Origin: Rubripirellula sp.
GTDB lineage: Bacteria > Planctomycetota > Planctomycetia > Pirellulales > Pirellulaceae
DNA: 33,528 bases
Direction: 5' to 3'
Assembly (NCBI GenBank): GCA_012270385.1
Contig: JAAXIK010000387.1
Span: forward strand, 1 to 33,528
The translations under genes were made by a program, and so were the position numbers. The notes under the pieces were generated by a model that saw only the letters and a list, made by a program, of their open reading frames with translations, was not told the DNA's origin and did not search any database. This document shows, piece after piece, positions 2,363 to 26,819 of the stretch (position 1 is its first letter; each line of letters opens with the position of its first letter).

Positions 2363-2794
2363 TTAGCTCTGAGGTTTTGTCAGTCTTCTTCCAGGTTTTT
2401 CCACGAGCTGCATTTTTGGAAAGACATTCTTACCGCCATGAAAGGTGCGTTTCCCGTTGATATTGTGATCAAATACAAACACGCCTCGTTTCGCAGTCTT
2501 GCGAGAGGATACGCGAAGAATCGATGGATTTCCGCATTCAGGACAGCGAACGCGAAGTCCATAGCGTTCGAGGAGCCTCTGTATGGTGCTCACTACCCGT
2601 TGGTTCTCTTCAAGACTTGGGTACTGCATCCCCTCGAAGTTTCGAAGGTAGTCTTGAATGGTGAGTCGGATGGAGCGGTGCAGCCGATTTAATTCTAGCT
2701 CGATGGCAGAGAGTGACGAATCCGGCTCGCGTGTTGCATCCTTTCGGCTGTTTGCTTCGGGTTTGCGATTTGCATCCTGCTCGCTCACTGTCAT
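2363..2794 (-). CDS. Unknown protein with one CPECG knuckle (143 aa)
   Basis: The N-terminal 30 residues are polar and probably disordered. Residues 30-75 look helical. A CPECGNP motif follows at about 84-90, then a basic, probably beta-rich C-terminus. The CxxC resembles half of a zinc ribbon, but no second CxxC is present, so it may bind zinc only as a dimer or not at all. The C-terminal half (RKTAKRG, NGKRTFHGG, PGRRLTKP) is strongly basic and could contact nucleic acid; this is inference only. It is first of a two-gene minus-strand unit with the 108-aa gene and is divergent from the 3040 operon across 245 bases. Confidence 0.65.
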   Translation of the reverse strand: MTVSEQDANRKPEANSRKDATREPDSSLSAIELELNRLHRSIRLTIQDYLRNFEGMQYPSLEENQRVVSTIQRLLERYGLRVRCPECGNPSILRVSSRKTAKRGVFVFDHNINGKRTFHGGKNVFPKMQLVEKPGRRLTKPQS

Positions 2795-3039: not shown

Positions 3040-5097
3040 ATGACGGTCAATCAGCAAACGGTTGAGGAGACAAAAGCCCAGATTCGGGGTTTGGTCAACG
3101 AAATCGCGCAGCTTGCAAAGAGCGGTGCGACGCCAGACGAATTTTATTCTGGACTTTTGACTCGTATTATCACCGCGCTCGCCGCTGCCGGTGGCGCAAT
3201 ATGGTTATTGGACGAGAATGGCAAGCTCCGATTGCAGTACCAGGTCAATGCGGAGCAGAATCTGCTGAATCAAGAAAATGAGGATGGTGTGAAGCATCAC
3301 CGCCTCATCGAGCGGGTTGCGAGAAGCGGGCAATCTATCCTTGTTCCACCCTTTTCAGGAACTACCGATGGAGAAGGAGAGAGTAATCCGACTCGGTATC
3401 TATTAGTGCTTGGATCTCTTCAGCACGACGAGCGACAAGATGGACTGATCGAGGTCTTTCAGCGACCCGACACCGCACCGGATACTCAAAAAGGTTACCT
3501 GCGGTTTGTCCAGCAGATGTGCGATTTGGCAGCGGAATGGCTCCGTGGTCAAACTCTGCGTACCCTCGGTGATCGACAAACGCTCTGGCAACAAGCCGAT
3601 GCTTTCGCCCGCGCTACCCACGAATCACTCGATTTAAAAGAAACGGCTTATATAGTTGCTAACGATGGCCGTCGTCTGATCGGATGTGATCGGGTGAGTG
3701 TTGCCATTAAAAAAGGAAGAAAGTGTCGTGTCCAAGCAATCAGTGGGCAAGACACGATTGAGAATCGTTCCAATATCGTGGCTGCATTAAACCAACTTGC
3801 TACTCGAGTGGTAGCAGCCGGCGAGCCACTATGGCATGACGGCTCAACCGAGGATTTGCCGCCGCAGATTGAAGAAGCTTTGGAGGATTACGTTGATCAG
3901 AGCTACGGTCGCAATGTTGCGGTTTTACCTTTACGGGAACCTGAGCGACGGCTCGGAGTGAATTCGGACCAAGGAGCTGCTGGAGAAATCGATCGTGACA
4001 ATGCGCATCGAGGAGAGGTCATCGGCGCTTTGATCGTTGAGCAAATTGAAAGTGCGATCCCCACCGAAATTTTCAAAGCTCGATGTGATTTGGTTTATGA
4101 ACACGGAACTCGAGCAATCGCCAATTCGCTTGCACATAGCAATCTATTTCTCATGCCACTATGGCGTGCGTTAGGCCGCGCCTCTTGGATCTTAAGGGCG
4201 AGGACACTACCAAAAACGATTGGTGTGGTATCGCTTCTACTTGTCGTCATCCTTGGTTTGATCTTTATTGAGAAGGATTTTAATCTTGAGGCAGAGGGAA
4301 CTTTGGTACCGATCCAGCGTCGCGAGGTGTTCGCGCCGATTGATGGCGAGGTTCTCCATGTTTTGGTGGATCATGATGATCCCGTCGAAGAAGGTGATCT
4401 GCTGGTCAGCATGATCAATCGTGATTTAGAAATTCAGCTGACTGAGGTCGTGGGTCAGATTTCCACCAATCGTGTTGAGGAACGTCGAGTACAGGGTCAA
4501 CTGCGCCTGCGCGACATCGAATTATCCGAACGTCGTGCCCTTGAGGCAGAACAGATCAAGCTGGAAACTGAATATCAAGTGCTCCGAAAAAAAGAGCAGC
4601 TCTATCTTGAGCGAATGAGTGAATTGGAAGTTCGCTCGCCGATCAAAGGGAATGTCGTTTCTTGGGATGTTGAAAAAACCCTTCACAGCCGACCCATCAT
4701 TACCGGGCAGGTTCTGGTGGAAATTGCAGACCTGAATCAACCTCTGGTTCTTGAAGTCGAATTACCGGAGAAAAGAGAGGGGCACCTAGATCGATACATC
4801 AAGGATCAGAGCCTGCAGAAAGATGATCAGCTTGAAGTGAGTTACATCTTGGCAACTGATCCCGATGTGCCACTCGAAGCCAAACTCGCGTTAGACAGCG
4901 TTTCCATGCGAGCCGATGCAGATGAGGAACATGGCGCGATTATCAAGATGCGAGCCATCCCGGCTCAAGACACTTTACGAGAATTACAGCCTAGGCCCGG
5001 AGCAAAGGTCATTGCCAAGATTTACTGTGGTCGTAGGAGCAGTGGGTTTGTCTTCTTTCACGAGATCTATGAATGGTGCTGCAAGTTCTTTTTCTGA
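3040..5097 (+). CDS. GAF-GAF-TM-HlyD fusion: sensor-like membrane-fusion (periplasmic adaptor) protein
   Basis: 685 aa. Two GAF-like domains (about 35-165 and 195-365) precede one hydrophobic segment (about 392-411). The C-terminal half is of HlyD / membrane-fusion type. It has a biotinyl-lipoyl half-motif around 425-460 (FAPIDGEVLHVLV then VEEGDLL), a coiled-coil hairpin (about 462-525), the second lipoyl half (SPIKGNVVSWDVE, about 528-560) and a beta-barrel region. With one TM, the GAF part should be cytoplasmic and the HlyD part periplasmic. The usual role of the HlyD family is to bridge an inner-membrane pump to an outer-membrane channel; here the GAF pair suggests control by a cytoplasmic signal (inference). 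It is first in a three-gene plus-strand operon. The stop at 5095-5097 is 65 bases before the next start. No strong Shine-Dalgarno. Confidence 0.88.
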   Translation: MTVNQQTVEETKAQIRGLVNEIAQLAKSGATPDEFYSGLLTRIITALAAAGGAIWLLDENGKLRLQYQVNAEQNLLNQENEDGVKHHRLIERVARSGQSILVPPFSGTTDGEGESNPTRYLLVLGSLQHDERQDGLIEVFQRPDTAPDTQKGYLRFVQQMCDLAAEWLRGQTLRTLGDRQTLWQQADAFARATHESLDLKETAYIVANDGRRLIGCDRVSVAIKKGRKCRVQAISGQDTIENRSNIVAALNQLATRVVAAGEPLWHDGSTEDLPPQIEEALEDYVDQSYGRNVAVLPLREPERRLGVNSDQGAAGEIDRDNAHRGEVIGALIVEQIESAIPTEIFKARCDLVYEHGTRAIANSLAHSNLFLMPLWRALGRASWILRARTLPKTIGVVSLLLVVILGLIFIEKDFNLEAEGTLVPIQRREVFAPIDGEVLHVLVDHDDPVEEGDLLVSMINRDLEIQLTEVVGQISTNRVEERRVQGQLRLRDIELSERRALEAEQIKLETEYQVLRKKEQLYLERMSELEVRSPIKGNVVSWDVEKTLHSRPIITGQVLVEIADLNQPLVLEVELPEKREGHLDRYIKDQSLQKDDQLEVSYILATDPDVPLEAKLALDSVSMRADADEEHGAIIKMRAIPAQDTLRELQPRPGAKVIAKIYCGRRSSGFVFFHEIYEWCCKFFF

Positions 5098-5162
5098 TGT
5101 TTTCATCGCGATCTATTGAGCCGAGTATCCGGCAGCAGTTGTTCCTTCGGAGTAAAGAGAAG

Positions 5163-6110
5163 ATGCAATTGAGACTCTCAACGACCGTCCTCAGTCTGTG
5201 CTTGGCTACGCTGACGGCGAATCCAGTTTGTTGGTCACAGCAAGCTGAGGCCCCCGAGCCCTCACCCGGCGAAGTCATTGAGGCAGAAAATTGTCTTGTG
5301 CAATACATCTTTAAGGTGATGCTAGCAGCTCGATCCGAAGGTGTATTAACGGAATTGCACTTTGAGGAGGGAGACACCGTCAAGATGGGTCAGTTGATCG
5401 CAGTGATCGATGACACGGCAGCCGCTCTTGCAGTGGCATTGAAATTAGCTGAAGAAAAAGAAGCGGTCATGAATGCCGCTAACGAGGTCAACCTTGAGGA
5501 TGCCCTCAATGCTGAGGAGCTCGCGAGTGCAGAATCGGAAGCTTACAAGGATCTTCGAAAAGAAGGAGCCATTCCCTACTGGGAGATGGAAAAGAAGCGT
5601 CTTGAAGCAAAGAGGGCAAAGCTTCGCATTGATCTGGCCGTCATGCAAAAGAAAATCGCAGAGGTTCAGATGATCGCCAAACGAAGCGAACGCCAGCTTG
5701 CCGAGTTTGAACTTTCCCAACGGCAGGTAAAAACTCCTTCCACTGGTTTCATTGAAGCACGATACGCACAATTGGGCGAGTGGCTTCAACCTGGTTCTCC
5801 AATTGCAACCCTGATTCAAATGGACCGTCTGCGGGTAGAAGGCGACATTGATGCATTAAGCTTTCGAAGTCGGGTTCGACAGGGAACGCCCGTGAAAGTC
5901 GTTATCGAGAATGACTCGGATCCGAATAAGGCAATCAAAATAGACGGGAAGCTAGGTTATGTGAGTATGGAGATCGATCTCAATAATCGTCATCGAGTCT
6001 GGGTCGAGATTCAGAATCAACCGATTATCGATGAGGCGACCGGTAAGGTGATCGATTGGCAAATCAAACCGGGGATGCGAGCATCGATTAAGATTCCTCA
6101 AGGATCTTAA
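5163..6110 (+). CDS. HlyD / RND-type periplasmic adaptor protein
   Basis: I place the start at the ATG at 5163 (315 aa), not an upstream in-frame codon at 5073. From 5163 the protein begins with a clear signal peptide (MQLRLSTTVLSLCLATL, ending near CWS) and has a purine-rich site (GGAGTAAAGAGAAG) just upstream; the earlier start would overlap the previous gene. The first lipoyl half is at about 50-80 (SEGVLTELHFEEGDTVKMGQ). A long coiled-coil follows (about 90-190), then the second lipoyl half (VKTPSTGFIEARYAQLGEW) and a beta-barrel domain ending near KPGMRASIKI. As a secreted adaptor it would act in the periplasm beside the other two HlyD-type proteins of the operon. No pump gene is adjacent. 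Confidence 0.88.
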   Translation: MQLRLSTTVLSLCLATLTANPVCWSQQAEAPEPSPGEVIEAENCLVQYIFKVMLAARSEGVLTELHFEEGDTVKMGQLIAVIDDTAAALAVALKLAEEKEAVMNAANEVNLEDALNAEELASAESEAYKDLRKEGAIPYWEMEKKRLEAKRAKLRIDLAVMQKKIAEVQMIAKRSERQLAEFELSQRQVKTPSTGFIEARYAQLGEWLQPGSPIATLIQMDRLRVEGDIDALSFRSRVRQGTPVKVVIENDSDPNKAIKIDGKLGYVSMEIDLNNRHRVWVEIQNQPIIDEATGKVIDWQIKPGMRASIKIPQGS

Positions 6111-6157
6111 ACTTCTCTGAAGTCACCCATTATCCCACACGGTAATCACTTCGAAAC

Positions 6158-8395
6158 ATGGCAACGCTTGCGGAATCCTTAGTTAGCAGCTCTTCGAGAC
6201 CGCTAACGGTGCGCAAACGGCCGGACCTTTCTGCCAATCGCCAACGTTATCAAGGGACAGGTTACTGGGTAGTCAAAGAGCCAGTTGGACTCCAGTACTT
6301 CCGCTTTCATGAAGAAGAATATTTCATTCTCAACATGCTCGACGGGCATGTGAGTCTTCAACAGATTAAAGATGGGTTTGAGCAAAGGTTTGCCCCTCAA
6401 AAGATCACGTTCGGTGATTTGCAGCAGTTCATTGGAATGCTTCATCGAAGCGGATTGGTCATTAGTAATTCTCCTGGGCAAGGGAAGTCCCTACGTGAGC
6501 GTGGGAGGAAGAAAAAGAATAAAGAGGTGATGGGTAAATTCACGAATGTATTTGCCATTCGCTACCGTGGATTTGATCCTGAGAAGATTCTTAATGGACT
6601 GCTGCCATGGTTTGGTTGGTTGTTCACCGTGCCGGCGCTCATTGGTTTCGTACTGATTTTCATGGCGGCCTCCCTTCTTTTGGCATCGCAGTACGAGACG
6701 GTCTATTCGAGATTACCATCCTTTCAGCAATTTTTCGCAGCGGATCGTTGGTTCATTCTTGCCATTACCATGGGTTTGGTCAAAGTTCTACATGAATTCG
6801 GCCACGGTCTGAGTTGCAAGAAGTTTGGTGGAGAGTGTCATGAGATTGGATTCATGTTGCTCGTCTTTACCCCATGCCTGTACTGCAACGTTTCTGACTC
6901 TTGGATGCTTCCCAATAAATGGAAGCGGGTTTGGATTGGTGCAGCTGGAATTTATGTGGAGATGTTTCTCGCGTCGATCGCCACGTTTATCTGGTGGTTT
7001 ACCGAGGAGGGTACAGCGATCAACGATCTGTCTCTCAATATGATGTTTCTCAATGCTGTTAGCACCGTTCTGGTCAACGGAAATCCGCTGCTGCGTTTTG
7101 ATGGTTATTACATCCTGATGGATGCTCTGGAAATTCCGAATCTTCGGCAAAAGAGCACCGAAGTTCTGAAGCGTGCCTTTCAGAAAACCTGCCTGGGATT
7201 GGAATTACCGGAAGATCCATTCTTGCCAACTCGTGGGCGGTTCTTTTTCGGTGCATTCACCGTTGCCAGTGTGATTTACCGGTGGGTTGTCGTGTTTTCG
7301 ATCTGTTGGTTTGTCATCAAAGTTCTGGAACCCTACGGTCTCCAGGCAATTGGTCGAATGGTAGCCGTGGTGGGTTTTGCCGGTTTAGTGATACAGCCAA
7401 TTGTTCAAACTTGGAAGTTTTGTCGTACTCCTGGGAGATTATCCAAAGTGAAGCGAACTCCATTAATGATTTCTCTTGGTGTTCTTGCAGTGATCTTGGC
7501 ACTCGTCTGTTATGTGCCATTACCCCACCATATCGATTGCGCATTGGAGATACGGCCGAGCCAGGCCGGTCTGGTTTACGCTGGGACCCCCGGTCAGATC
7601 GAGTGGACTGTCTCACCCAAGGAATATGTGAACGAGGATGATGCCGTCGCGATCCTCCGGAATCCAGATCTGGAGATCCGCTTAGCAGATCTTCGGGGGC
7701 GGCAAGAAATTGCCGAAGTCGAGCTTAGGAATCTGTCTTATCGAAGTCGGAATGATGCCGCTTTGAAAGCTCAAATCGACACCCAAGAGGAGTTGCTAGC
7801 AGCTATTGAGTTGTTGAGGGAGAAGACAGAGGAGGAAATCAAGGAGCTAACTGTACTGGCGCCTCGCTCCGGATACGTGATTCCGCCGAATGATCGACCT
7901 GCTGAGAATTCTCCAGATGGACGCTTGCCGACATGGGTGGGTTCACCCCTGGAGCCGCGAAACCGCGGGGCCATGCTCACGGCCGAGGATGTGATTTGCG
8001 AGATAGGAAATCCAAAAGCCCTCGAAGCTGTACTGGTCGTTGATCAGGGTGATGTTCAATTAGTAAAGATAGGGCAGCAAGTGGATATAAAATTAGACGC
8101 GGAGAGAGAATCTACCTATCACGGTGCAATCACGGAAAAGTCGAATGAACCGATTGCAGCGACCTCAATGTCGCTAGCAAGTCAAACTGGCGGGGATCTT
8201 CAAACCGAAATCGATCCCGCAACAGGCCAAGTCAAACCGCGTAGTATTTCTTATCAAGCCAGAGTGCCGCTTACTGAGGTGGGTTTGACGTTGCGTCCCG
8301 GATATCGAGGCTCAGCGAAAATACATGTCGATCCCATGTCACTTGGCTCCCGATTATGGCGGGTCATCGCACAAACTTTCAATTTCGAAATCTGA
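6158..8395 (+). CDS. PqqD-like / M50 site-2 protease / HlyD fusion membrane protein
   Basis: 745 aa in three parts. Residues about 35-105 resemble a PqqD / winged-helix chaperone domain (YFRFHEEEYFILNMLDG). A polytopic M50 metalloprotease core follows, with HEFGH at 212-216 and the third-ligand motif NGNPLLRFDGYY near 308-318 (D315). After a further TM (about 453-472) the C-terminus is HlyD-like, with a coiled-coil at about 520-590, the lipoyl-type segment LAPRSGYVIPP and a terminal beta-barrel. The zinc ligands are intact, so proteolysis in the membrane is possible, but such M50-HlyD proteins may act mainly as transport components. Third gene of the operon, 47 bases after the previous stop. 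The substrate is unknown. Confidence 0.88.
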   Translation: MATLAESLVSSSSRPLTVRKRPDLSANRQRYQGTGYWVVKEPVGLQYFRFHEEEYFILNMLDGHVSLQQIKDGFEQRFAPQKITFGDLQQFIGMLHRSGLVISNSPGQGKSLRERGRKKKNKEVMGKFTNVFAIRYRGFDPEKILNGLLPWFGWLFTVPALIGFVLIFMAASLLLASQYETVYSRLPSFQQFFAADRWFILAITMGLVKVLHEFGHGLSCKKFGGECHEIGFMLLVFTPCLYCNVSDSWMLPNKWKRVWIGAAGIYVEMFLASIATFIWWFTEEGTAINDLSLNMMFLNAVSTVLVNGNPLLRFDGYYILMDALEIPNLRQKSTEVLKRAFQKTCLGLELPEDPFLPTRGRFFFGAFTVASVIYRWVVVFSICWFVIKVLEPYGLQAIGRMVAVVGFAGLVIQPIVQTWKFCRTPGRLSKVKRTPLMISLGVLAVILALVCYVPLPHHIDCALEIRPSQAGLVYAGTPGQIEWTVSPKEYVNEDDAVAILRNPDLEIRLADLRGRQEIAEVELRNLSYRSRNDAALKAQIDTQEELLAAIELLREKTEEEIKELTVLAPRSGYVIPPNDRPAENSPDGRLPTWVGSPLEPRNRGAMLTAEDVICEIGNPKALEAVLVVDQGDVQLVKIGQQVDIKLDAERESTYHGAITEKSNEPIAATSMSLASQTGGDLQTEIDPATGQVKPRSISYQARVPLTEVGLTLRPGYRGSAKIHVDPMSLGSRLWRVIAQTFNFEI

Positions 8396-8615: not shown

Positions 8616-8990
8616 ATGGCCGACAGTAAAGATTCAGATCAAGCACAGCCCGCTGAGCAGGCTCAAACCCAACAACCTGTTCAGGTTCAAGTCAACGCGG
8701 ATCACGCTATGGCATCCTATGCAAACTTCTGCCGCGTGACTGGGTCACCGGAAGAGCTGATCGTTGACTTTGGTTTGAACCCGCAGCCAATTGGTGTTCC
8801 AAAAGATCCAATCGAGGTAAAGCAAAGAATCATTGTTAATTTCTACACAGCCAAGCGATTACTCGCGGCATTGCAGATGTCGGTTGCTAGACATGAGGCA
8901 GTCTTCGGTGTGCTTGAGACTGACATTAACAAACGTGTTCGTCCGGGCCTGAACCAACCCAATCAGCAAGCTCCTGCAAAGGAAGACTGA
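8616..8990 (+). CDS. DUF3467 family protein
   Basis: 124 aa, soluble. A Gln/Ala-rich N-terminus (about 1-27) precedes the DUF3467 core (about 28-110), recognisable from HAMASYANFCRVTGSPEEL, VDFGLNPQP, RIIVNFYTAKRL and SVARHEAVFG. The biochemical role of the family is not known to me. The start is well supported: ATG at 8616 with AGGAG at 8603-8607, one of the best ribosome sites in the window, which suggests high expression. It is likely a single-gene transcript, ending at the terminator at 9017-9046 and separated from the M50 gene by 220 bases. Confidence 0.88.
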   Translation: MADSKDSDQAQPAEQAQTQQPVQVQVNADHAMASYANFCRVTGSPEELIVDFGLNPQPIGVPKDPIEVKQRIIVNFYTAKRLLAALQMSVARHEAVFGVLETDINKRVRPGLNQPNQQAPAKED

Positions 8991-25475: not shown

Positions 25476-26315
25476 TTAATGATTGAACAACGCGAGACTT
25501 TCTTCGGCCGCTGTAGGGTCGATCAGTGCGACGACGATGTCACCAGGTTCAAGGCGATCATCGGCTTGTGGAACGCGGACAAATCCGTCCCTTTCCACGG
25601 CAGCGATCAAGCATCGGCCAGCAAGTGGTAATTCGGCGAGCGTAGCCTTTGTGATTGCTGCATCAGGAAGAACTTCTAGTTCAAAGACCCCGATTGCACC
25701 GTTGGGCAGTCGACGTTGACTAATCACAGCACCCTCATTTAGGTAGCCCAGAATTTGGCGTGCTGTCACATCCCTTTCACTCACTGCATGATCGATTCCG
25801 AGTTTGCCAACCACGTTTGCATAATCGGGTCGACCTACCACACACATGACCCGAGCAGCACCCAGTTCTCTCGCCTCCACGCCTGCCATGATATTGCTCT
25901 CATCATTGCCGGTGCAGGCCACGAAGTAGTCCACTGTTCCGGCTCCCTCGTCCTCTAGGATCGTACGACGGTTAGCGTCAGCATGGATAACTGTCGCTTT
26001 GGGAAGCAAGCGAGACAGACGATCACAGCGATCAGGATCGGCTTCTAGCATCACAATTCTGTAGTCGCGTCGAGCCAGAGATTCCGCGAGGTGGTATCCC
26101 GTTTCACCGCCACCGGCAATCATCACTCTTTGTTGAGCACTTCGGTCTTTAGAAAGCGTGAAAAATTCGCGACTTTTGGCGACAGATTCGGGATTTCCGA
26201 TCAGGCTGACGCGATCCTTCCCGTGTAGTTCATCTTCTCCGCTGGCGATCCACATTCTGCCATCTCGCGCTATGGAGCCGATGCGTACTGAGGCGGCTAA
26301 GTCAAGGACTCTCAA
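25476..26315 (-). CDS. trkA: TrkA C-terminal part (second RCK unit), after an in-frame TAA
   Basis: 279 aa if read from a TTG at 26313-26315, immediately after the TAA that ends the first part, in the same frame. It contains the end of the first RCK_C domain (LAASVRIGSIARDG), a second Rossmann NAD-binding domain (MIAGGGETGYHLAESLA, VIHADANRRTILEDEG, TGNDESNIMAG) and a second RCK_C domain (LPLAGRCLIAAVERDGFVRV). Together with the first part the total is 447 codons, the usual TrkA length. A TTG start inside a conserved domain is unlikely to be natural, so either the gene is broken, the stop is an error, or translation passes through or restarts there. Next is oxoprolinase, 14 bases on. Confidence 0.8.
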   Translation of the reverse strand: MRVLDLAASVRIGSIARDGRMWIASGEDELHGKDRVSLIGNPESVAKSREFFTLSKDRSAQQRVMIAGGGETGYHLAESLARRDYRIVMLEADPDRCDRLSRLLPKATVIHADANRRTILEDEGAGTVDYFVACTGNDESNIMAGVEARELGAARVMCVVGRPDYANVVGKLGIDHAVSERDVTARQILGYLNEGAVISQRRLPNGAIGVFELEVLPDAAITKATLAELPLAGRCLIAAVERDGFVRVPQADDRLEPGDIVVALIDPTAAEESLALFNH

Positions 26316-26819
26316 TTAGTGTTCTGCCGCAGATGAGCGCGCATCGACCTCCACTTCATAAACTTCAAGTTGGCCGCGCGCAAAATGCTCCAACGGGATT
26401 GCATCTGGATTGCGAATTGCGCGTGCCAATTCAAAAGCAGATAGCTGTTCCAAGCTCAGCAAGCTGTCGATGTTGAAGTGTCGCTGGTAATCAAATGTAC
26501 TGAGATCCTGAAACGCGGGTGCGTAGACCCTCGCAATACTTCTTCTCGCCCCGAGTGCTTTTGCCATGCTTGCGGCGAGGATGTTCACTTCATCGTCTCC
26601 TGTGACCGCCAGGCAAACATCTGCGGCACACACATCTGCTTGGAACAAGACGGTGCTTCGTGCTGCGCTTCCGACAATTGCGCGCACATCCAGCTCACTG
26701 TTGATTTGAGCAACATTTTCCTGATCAGCGTCGACTACGGTAACGCTATGGCCGCGGCGGCAGAGAATATCCGAAACCCATCGACCTACCGTCCCCGCAC
26801 CTAAAGTCAGAACTTGCAT
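26316..26819 (-). CDS. trkA: TrkA N-terminal part (first RCK unit), interrupted by in-frame TAA
   Basis: 167 aa to a TAA at 26316-26318. NAD-binding Rossmann domain with GAGTVGR (8-14), the acidic VVDAD after beta-2 and VTGDDEVNILAASMAKALGA, followed by the start of an RCK_C domain (LEVYEVEVDARSSAAEH) that the stop cuts. TrkA is the cytoplasmic gating subunit of Trk/Ktr K+ uptake, binding NAD(H) and nucleotides beside TrkH. No trkH lies in the window. The remaining 279 codons follow at once in the same frame. A 6-bp hairpin (26844-26865) lies 25 bases upstream of the ATG. Confidence 0.85.
   Translation of the reverse strand: MQVLTLGAGTVGRWVSDILCRRGHSVTVVDADQENVAQINSELDVRAIVGSAARSTVLFQADVCAADVCLAVTGDDEVNILAASMAKALGARRSIARVYAPAFQDLSTFDYQRHFNIDSLLSLEQLSAFELARAIRNPDAIPLEHFARGQLEVYEVEVDARSSAAEH

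Follow-up and report, generated by a model that had tools for sequence, protein, structure and literature searches.

The window analyzed here is the whole stretch of 33,528 nucleotides from Rubripirellula sp. (contig JAAXIK010000387.1). It contains three consecutive genes encoding HlyD-type adaptors, designated P1, P2, and P3, and a nearby gene encoding a DUF3467 protein. The features are as follows, with positions counted from the first nucleotide of the window and the basis of each assignment in parentheses.

3040..5097, plus strand: P1, GAF-GAF-TM-HlyD adaptor, 685 aa (Pfam, AF2 model, folds)
3133..3960, plus strand: tandem GAF region of P1, residues 32-307, predicted to be cytosolic (Pfam; fold match over residues 13-379)
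4207..4266, plus strand: predicted transmembrane helix of P1, residues about 390-409 (helix in the model, hydrophobic sequence)
5163..6110, plus strand: P2, signal peptide and HlyD/RND-type adaptor, 315 aa (Pfam, start read from the sequence)
6158..8395, plus strand: P3, RRE/PqqD-like domain, site-2 protease (M50), and HlyD, 745 aa (Pfam/NCBIfam, AF2 model, folds)
6203..6472, plus strand: RRE/PqqD-like domain of P3, residues 16-105 (fold matches, profile match to PqqD)
6737..7327, plus strand: RseP-like M50 core of P3, residues 194-390 (RseP fold, NF041824 match)
6791..6805, plus strand: HExxH zinc site of P3, H212, E213, and H216 (invariant in 64 homologues)
7100..7102, plus strand: presumed third zinc ligand of P3, D315 (NGNPLLRFDGYY) (invariant in 64 homologues)
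7520..8335, plus strand: C-terminal HlyD/MacA-like adaptor of P3, residues 455-726 (MacA fold)
8616..8990, plus strand: DUF3467 protein, 124 aa, proposed accessory component (PF11950, 83.7 bits)

All three adaptor genes lie on the same strand, with gaps of 65 bp between P1 and P2 and 47 bp between P2 and P3. A longer ORF of P2 opens at 5073, within P1, and the start that yields a signal peptide is the ATG at 5163, giving the 65-bp gap. The original prediction described three co-oriented HlyD-type genes with these gaps and with differing N-terminal modules (GAF-GAF-TM; signal peptide; PqqD-like plus M50); its coordinates, strands, and gaps all agreed with ours, and the modules were borne out by Pfam, structure models, and fold comparison. 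Just upstream of P1, a small zinc-ribbon-like protein is encoded divergently (2363-2794, minus strand), and its relatives occupy the same place in 23 loci.

The Pfam matches of P1 to GAF_3 and GAF exceeded the cut-off, and HlyD_3 was also matched. The alignments behind the structure models contained no loci other than those of the window and the genomes. In the fold comparison of the P1 model (mean pLDDT of 87), the N-terminus resembled the tandem GAF of PDE5A (Z of 20.1) and the C-terminus resembled MacA (Z of 17.2). P2 matched HlyD_3 and HlyD_D23, and its score against RND_mfp was 86.6 bits, under the cut-off of 94.9. HlyD/RND-type adaptors usually serve ABC, MFS, or RND pumps, and together with the closeness of P2 to the RND_mfp cut-off, this could make the three proteins ordinary adaptors for small-molecule pumps encoded elsewhere. 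Such a role is highly improbable because the recurring partners of the trio, as described below, are SecA2, DUF3467, TolC, and giant proteins, with no pump among them, and because, to our knowledge, a protease-RRE fusion like that in P3 has no role in drug efflux.

In P3, HlyD_3 was over the cut-off, Peptidase_M50 was narrowly under it (26.1 versus 27.2 bits), and PqqD was also under it (16 versus 23.4). In the P3 model (pLDDT of 87.2), residues 16-105 were matched with the TbiB1-leader complex 5v1v (Z of 10.9, rmsd of 3.0, 86 aligned), 6jx3 (Z of 10.7), and TigE (Z of 10.0), of which 5v1v and 6jx3 are RRE domains solved together with leader peptides. The N-terminal domain also gave a profile match to PqqD 3g2b (E of 3.4e-4). 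This segment has the winged-helix leader-binding fold in the model, leader binding itself being putative. Residues 194-390 resembled RseP 7w6x (Z of 9.9, rmsd of 3.8, 161 aligned), and HExxH with a distal D lies within this transmembrane core, as in M50 proteases. The 64 homologues aligned were from Planctomycetota and Proteobacteria, and the second M50 motif was scored by alignment, a strict regular expression having overlooked many of them. Because HExxH and D315 are invariant in this set, catalysis in P3 has likely been kept, which, as far as sequence can indicate, argues for a function beyond the pore role proposed for M50 in 2015. Residues 455-726 were matched with MacA (Z of 16.7, rmsd of 6.2, 224 aligned). 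For all of these domains, likeness of fold is no demonstration of function. Taken together, P3 joins what looks like an intact site-2 protease to an adaptor and to a domain of the leader-binding type.

P3 also matched the daptide protease family NF041824 with 179.4 bits over residues 32-412 and LiaK/YydH with 55 bits. With the RRE-like fold, these matches could point to RiPP-like peptide maturation and export, in which P3 would be related to the daptide and epipeptide proteases, the RRE would bind a small precursor, and the adaptors would export the product. We regard this as unlikely, since neither score reached its curated cut-off (300 and 225, respectively), no modification enzyme was recognized in the conserved neighborhood of the trio, and the related operons, as judged from products of 60 aa or more, encode giants and not small precursors.

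Of the 62 genomic loci whose flanks were long enough, 43 had P1-P2-P3 and 11 had SecA2-P1-P3, and the rest are variants or have a gene overlooked by simple ORF calling. Pirellulaceae as a rule have P1-P2-P3, in many cases followed by DUF3467, and loci of the Mariniblastus type have the order SecA-like, P1, P3. The trio is thus a conserved unit, and its arrangement is not due to chance. The co-occurrence that the original prediction had proposed to examine was found across Pirellulaceae and beyond, and no trio gene was accompanied by a conserved pump of its own. In a P3 tree made by a quick method and containing several long branches, P3 of the window was placed within the Pirellulaceae orthologues, near two P3s adjacent to SecA2 (L005 and L006), and three proteobacterial P3s from operons without SecA formed their own long, fully supported branch.

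The trio had been described as lacking any pump or channel gene. Within the window this holds: none of its ORFs was recognized as a pump or channel gene that would partner HlyD, and no ABC transporter partner was found among them or among the recognized conserved neighbors, linked genes being those considered. It does not hold for relatives, in 20 of which a conserved partner, a short SecA, is linked to the trio. Kamneva, Poudel and Ward (2015; PMC4452313) described a module in which secondary SecA_DEAD genes adjoin genes of the same three clusters, M50+HlyD, HlyD, and GAF+HlyD, with no ABC gene and, in some loci, with an OEP gene. They also reported that module members may be encoded apart, proposed M50 as a pore, whereas its catalytic residues are invariant in the set above, and called the broader biological role of the module "completely unknown." GAF+HlyD, HlyD, and M50+HlyD are encoded together in the window, and the genome has a secondary SecA_DEAD without a SecA_SW match. 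Unlike what is usual in the described module, the SecA gene is unlinked; since separate encoding is itself reported in PMC4452313, the absence of a SecA gene next to the trio does not disqualify the window.

The short SecA gene of this genome is located on another contig (C525:2683-4761). Its product has SecA_DEAD, SecA_PP_bind, and the P-loop, with no Pfam match to SecA_SW, and it shares 58-59% identity with the copies that precede the orthologous trio in two relatives (G121 and G205). The order read directly in G205 is SecA2, P1, P2, P3, DUF3467, and a gene beginning LESRQLLDG. Of 60 family genomes, 59 carry P3 and 58 a short SecA; among the matches listed for the phylum, P3 is present in 27 of 28 genomes with a short SecA. 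Of the 49 family genomes compared, 20 have the short SecA linked to the orthologous trio, at distances from P3 of 3.3-8.6 kb, mostly 3.3-4.5 kb, which leaves room for P1 and P2. In all of the ten closest relatives, SecA and P3 are apart, in five of them on a single contig; where a genome is in many contigs, non-linkage is weaker evidence. Because the short SecA is linked to the trio in relatives and unlinked in this clade, the pump-less appearance of the window most likely reflects relocation of the SecA gene and not a motor-less machine. The window is a member, with a probably relocated motor, of a module known since 2015.

A second SecA is not always needed, because three apparently closed genomes (G024, G283, and G291; loci L124, L193, and L194 belong to G024 and G291) carry P3 with one SecA match, of canonical size, among the matches listed. 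Proteobacterial operons, of which some were selected by hand from 81 plasmid records, also occur in two forms. On annotated plasmids, the P3 operon often opens with a giant gene, as in the order giant, DUF3467, P1, P3, SecA2, P2, TolC. The giants were of the LEPR-XLL type in Pontibrevibacter, Pseudosulfitobacter, and Thalassospira, of DUF4347 or other types in Kosakonia, Azospirillum, Burkholderia, Niveispirillum, and Variovorax, and of still other types in Methylosinus, Rhizobium, Mesorhizobium, and Alisedimentitalea. In operons with the short SecA, all five P1 proteins tested had GAF domains, DUF3467 was mostly included, and the readable giants bore LEPRxLLxAD-type tags; in SecA-less operons, none of the four P1 proteins tested had a GAF match, and the tags read LE[PA]Rx(M/V)(F/Y)DA. 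Thalassospira was mixed, with an LL-type tag and DUF3467 but an operon without SecA and a P1 without a GAF match. The two forms, one with SecA, GAF, DUF3467, and the LL tag and the other SecA-less with no GAF and the MF tag, can be seen in L172-L180 and L240-L245. The SecA motor is, therefore, not universal, as judged from the SecA-less proteobacterial form and from the three closed-looking genomes without a listed second SecA. In Kosakonia, Azospirillum, and Burkholderia (L176, L179, and L241), the SecA-less P3 operon is adjoined by small genes annotated as tail fibre.

DUF3467 was present in 61 of 294 genomes of the phylum, 41 of them with P3 (p of 7e-18, without phylogenetic correction), and in 16 of the phylum genomes listed, including the present one, it was no farther than about 3.4 kb from P3. 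It also occurs in SecA-type proteobacterial operons and is probably a component of the module. An exclusive association with P3 systems was ruled out, 20 of the 61 genomes having no P3. Tandem DUF3467 genes, one apparently double-domain, were found away from P3 in G137, G194, G291, G105, and other genomes of the same class.

The candidate cargo was suggested by an N-terminal motif. In the proteobacterial operons, 12 of the 13 readable giants beside P3 carried [LIM]E[PA]R at the N-terminus, although in Rhizobium and Alisedimentitalea the motif lies a little ahead of the start as annotated. The thirteenth, a HrpK-domain protein beside a P3 relative in Phyllobacterium, lacked it. LEPR-XLL was found in 18 of the 294 phylum genomes, 17 of which had P3, compared with 67 P3-positive genomes in total (p of 3e-11, without phylogenetic correction). 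Since NF012209 alone overlooks motifs of the Pirellulaceae type, a broader motif model was made; some of the genes used to build it lie near P3, and with only genomes not used in building counted, 16 of 17 were P3-positive. Motif genes near P3 in planctomycetes were weakly and not significantly enriched (9 of 41 versus 4 of 40 regions, p of 0.12), a result expected from scattered cargo genes yet equally uninformative. The present genome itself encodes LE[DSQPA]RxLLA proteins. The cargo is likely to consist of very large surface proteins starting with a short LEPR/LEDR-x-LL tag. N-terminal LE[PDSQA]RxLL is common to large planctomycete proteins (L103, L114, L115, L130, L136, L147, L190, and others), and it may be possible that it serves there as a general sorting signal.

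Because of the proteobacterial giants, the co-occurrence across the phylum, and the folds of P3, from which we infer export, recognition, and cleavage, the trio probably encodes the envelope portion of an exporter that moves giant surface proteins without an ABC transporter, the module of Kamneva et al, in which P3 reads and probably trims the tag. The original suggestion that a surface protein encoded elsewhere is exported or processed fits the LEPR/LEDR evidence, with both activities deduced. In the proposed mechanism, the short SecA, perhaps assisted by DUF3467, would drive giant proteins to the membrane and dock on the cytosolic GAF domains of P1, which could serve for docking or regulation. 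The RRE-like domain of P3 would read the LE[PDSQA]RxLL tag, and its M50 protease would trim it. The inner-membrane pore could be SecYEG or the helices of P3 itself, and the adaptors of P1, P2, and P3 may form one mixed periplasmic sleeve, which would pass the protein on to a TolC-type channel whose gene lies elsewhere. The genome holds TolC-family genes, with candidates for the exit channel on three other contigs (C514, C25, and C132).

GAF domains are sensors, and M50 proteases such as RseP cleave anti-sigma factors. The combination could, therefore, represent envelope sensing by regulated intramembrane proteolysis, in which the HlyD parts would serve as scaffolds and not as a path for export. 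This is quite improbable, given that the presence of three separate adaptors, which in relatives go together with TolC and a SecA-type ATPase, points to transport, and that a general reading of the conserved neighbors turned up no sigma or anti-sigma gene.

The exporter of giant proteins would resemble type I secretion (HlyBD-TolC, and LapBCE for giant adhesins) in its HlyD-type adaptors, the TolC-type channel of relatives, and the giant surface cargo, and differ from it in having no ABC transporter with the trio, three different adaptors, a SecA-type ATPase, and an N-terminal instead of a C-terminal tag. As in the accessory Sec system of Gram-positives (SecA2-SecY2), a second, divergent SecA would be paired with large surface proteins, whereas the system here has HlyD adaptors, a site-2 protease, and a short SecA without a SecA_SW match. 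PCAT exporters recognize a leader, cleave it, and export the product within a single machine, as the present system would by analogy, but they are a cysteine protease (C39 peptidase) fused to an ABC transporter, whereas P3 is a membrane metalloprotease fused to an adaptor. MacAB-TolC is alike in that the adaptor folds of P1 and P3 are closest to MacA, and unlike in that the trio system has no MacB.

It is an evenly balanced possibility that these operons represent a distinct Gram-negative ABC-free route, defined by an N-terminal LE[PDSA]Rx(L/M)(L/F) tag on giants, a reader of the RRE type known from RiPP biosynthesis, and an adaptor-built site-2 protease that cuts the tag, and existing in two forms, one with the short SecA, a GAF-bearing P1, and DUF3467 and the other with none of these and an MFDAA-type tag. 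In the open-access literature searched, a scope that leaves aside subscription papers and NCBIfam notes, no link of LEPR/LEDR cargo, the RRE-like domain, or DUF3467 to the module was found, and the parts of PMC4452313 used here do not name DUF3467, an RRE-like domain, or LEPR-type cargo. A candidate cargo signature, together with a candidate reader and a candidate protease, would make the 2015 module testable. If the proposal is true, it would account for the way in which proteins thousands of residues long might leave the cells of planctomycetes and many Proteobacteria with no ABC exporter dedicated to them.

Elsewhere in the window, a potassium uptake protein of the Trk type (TrkA_N, TrkA_N, TrkA_C; 25476-26819, minus strand) is present as two ORFs split by one in-frame stop, representing either a broken gene or a sequencing error.
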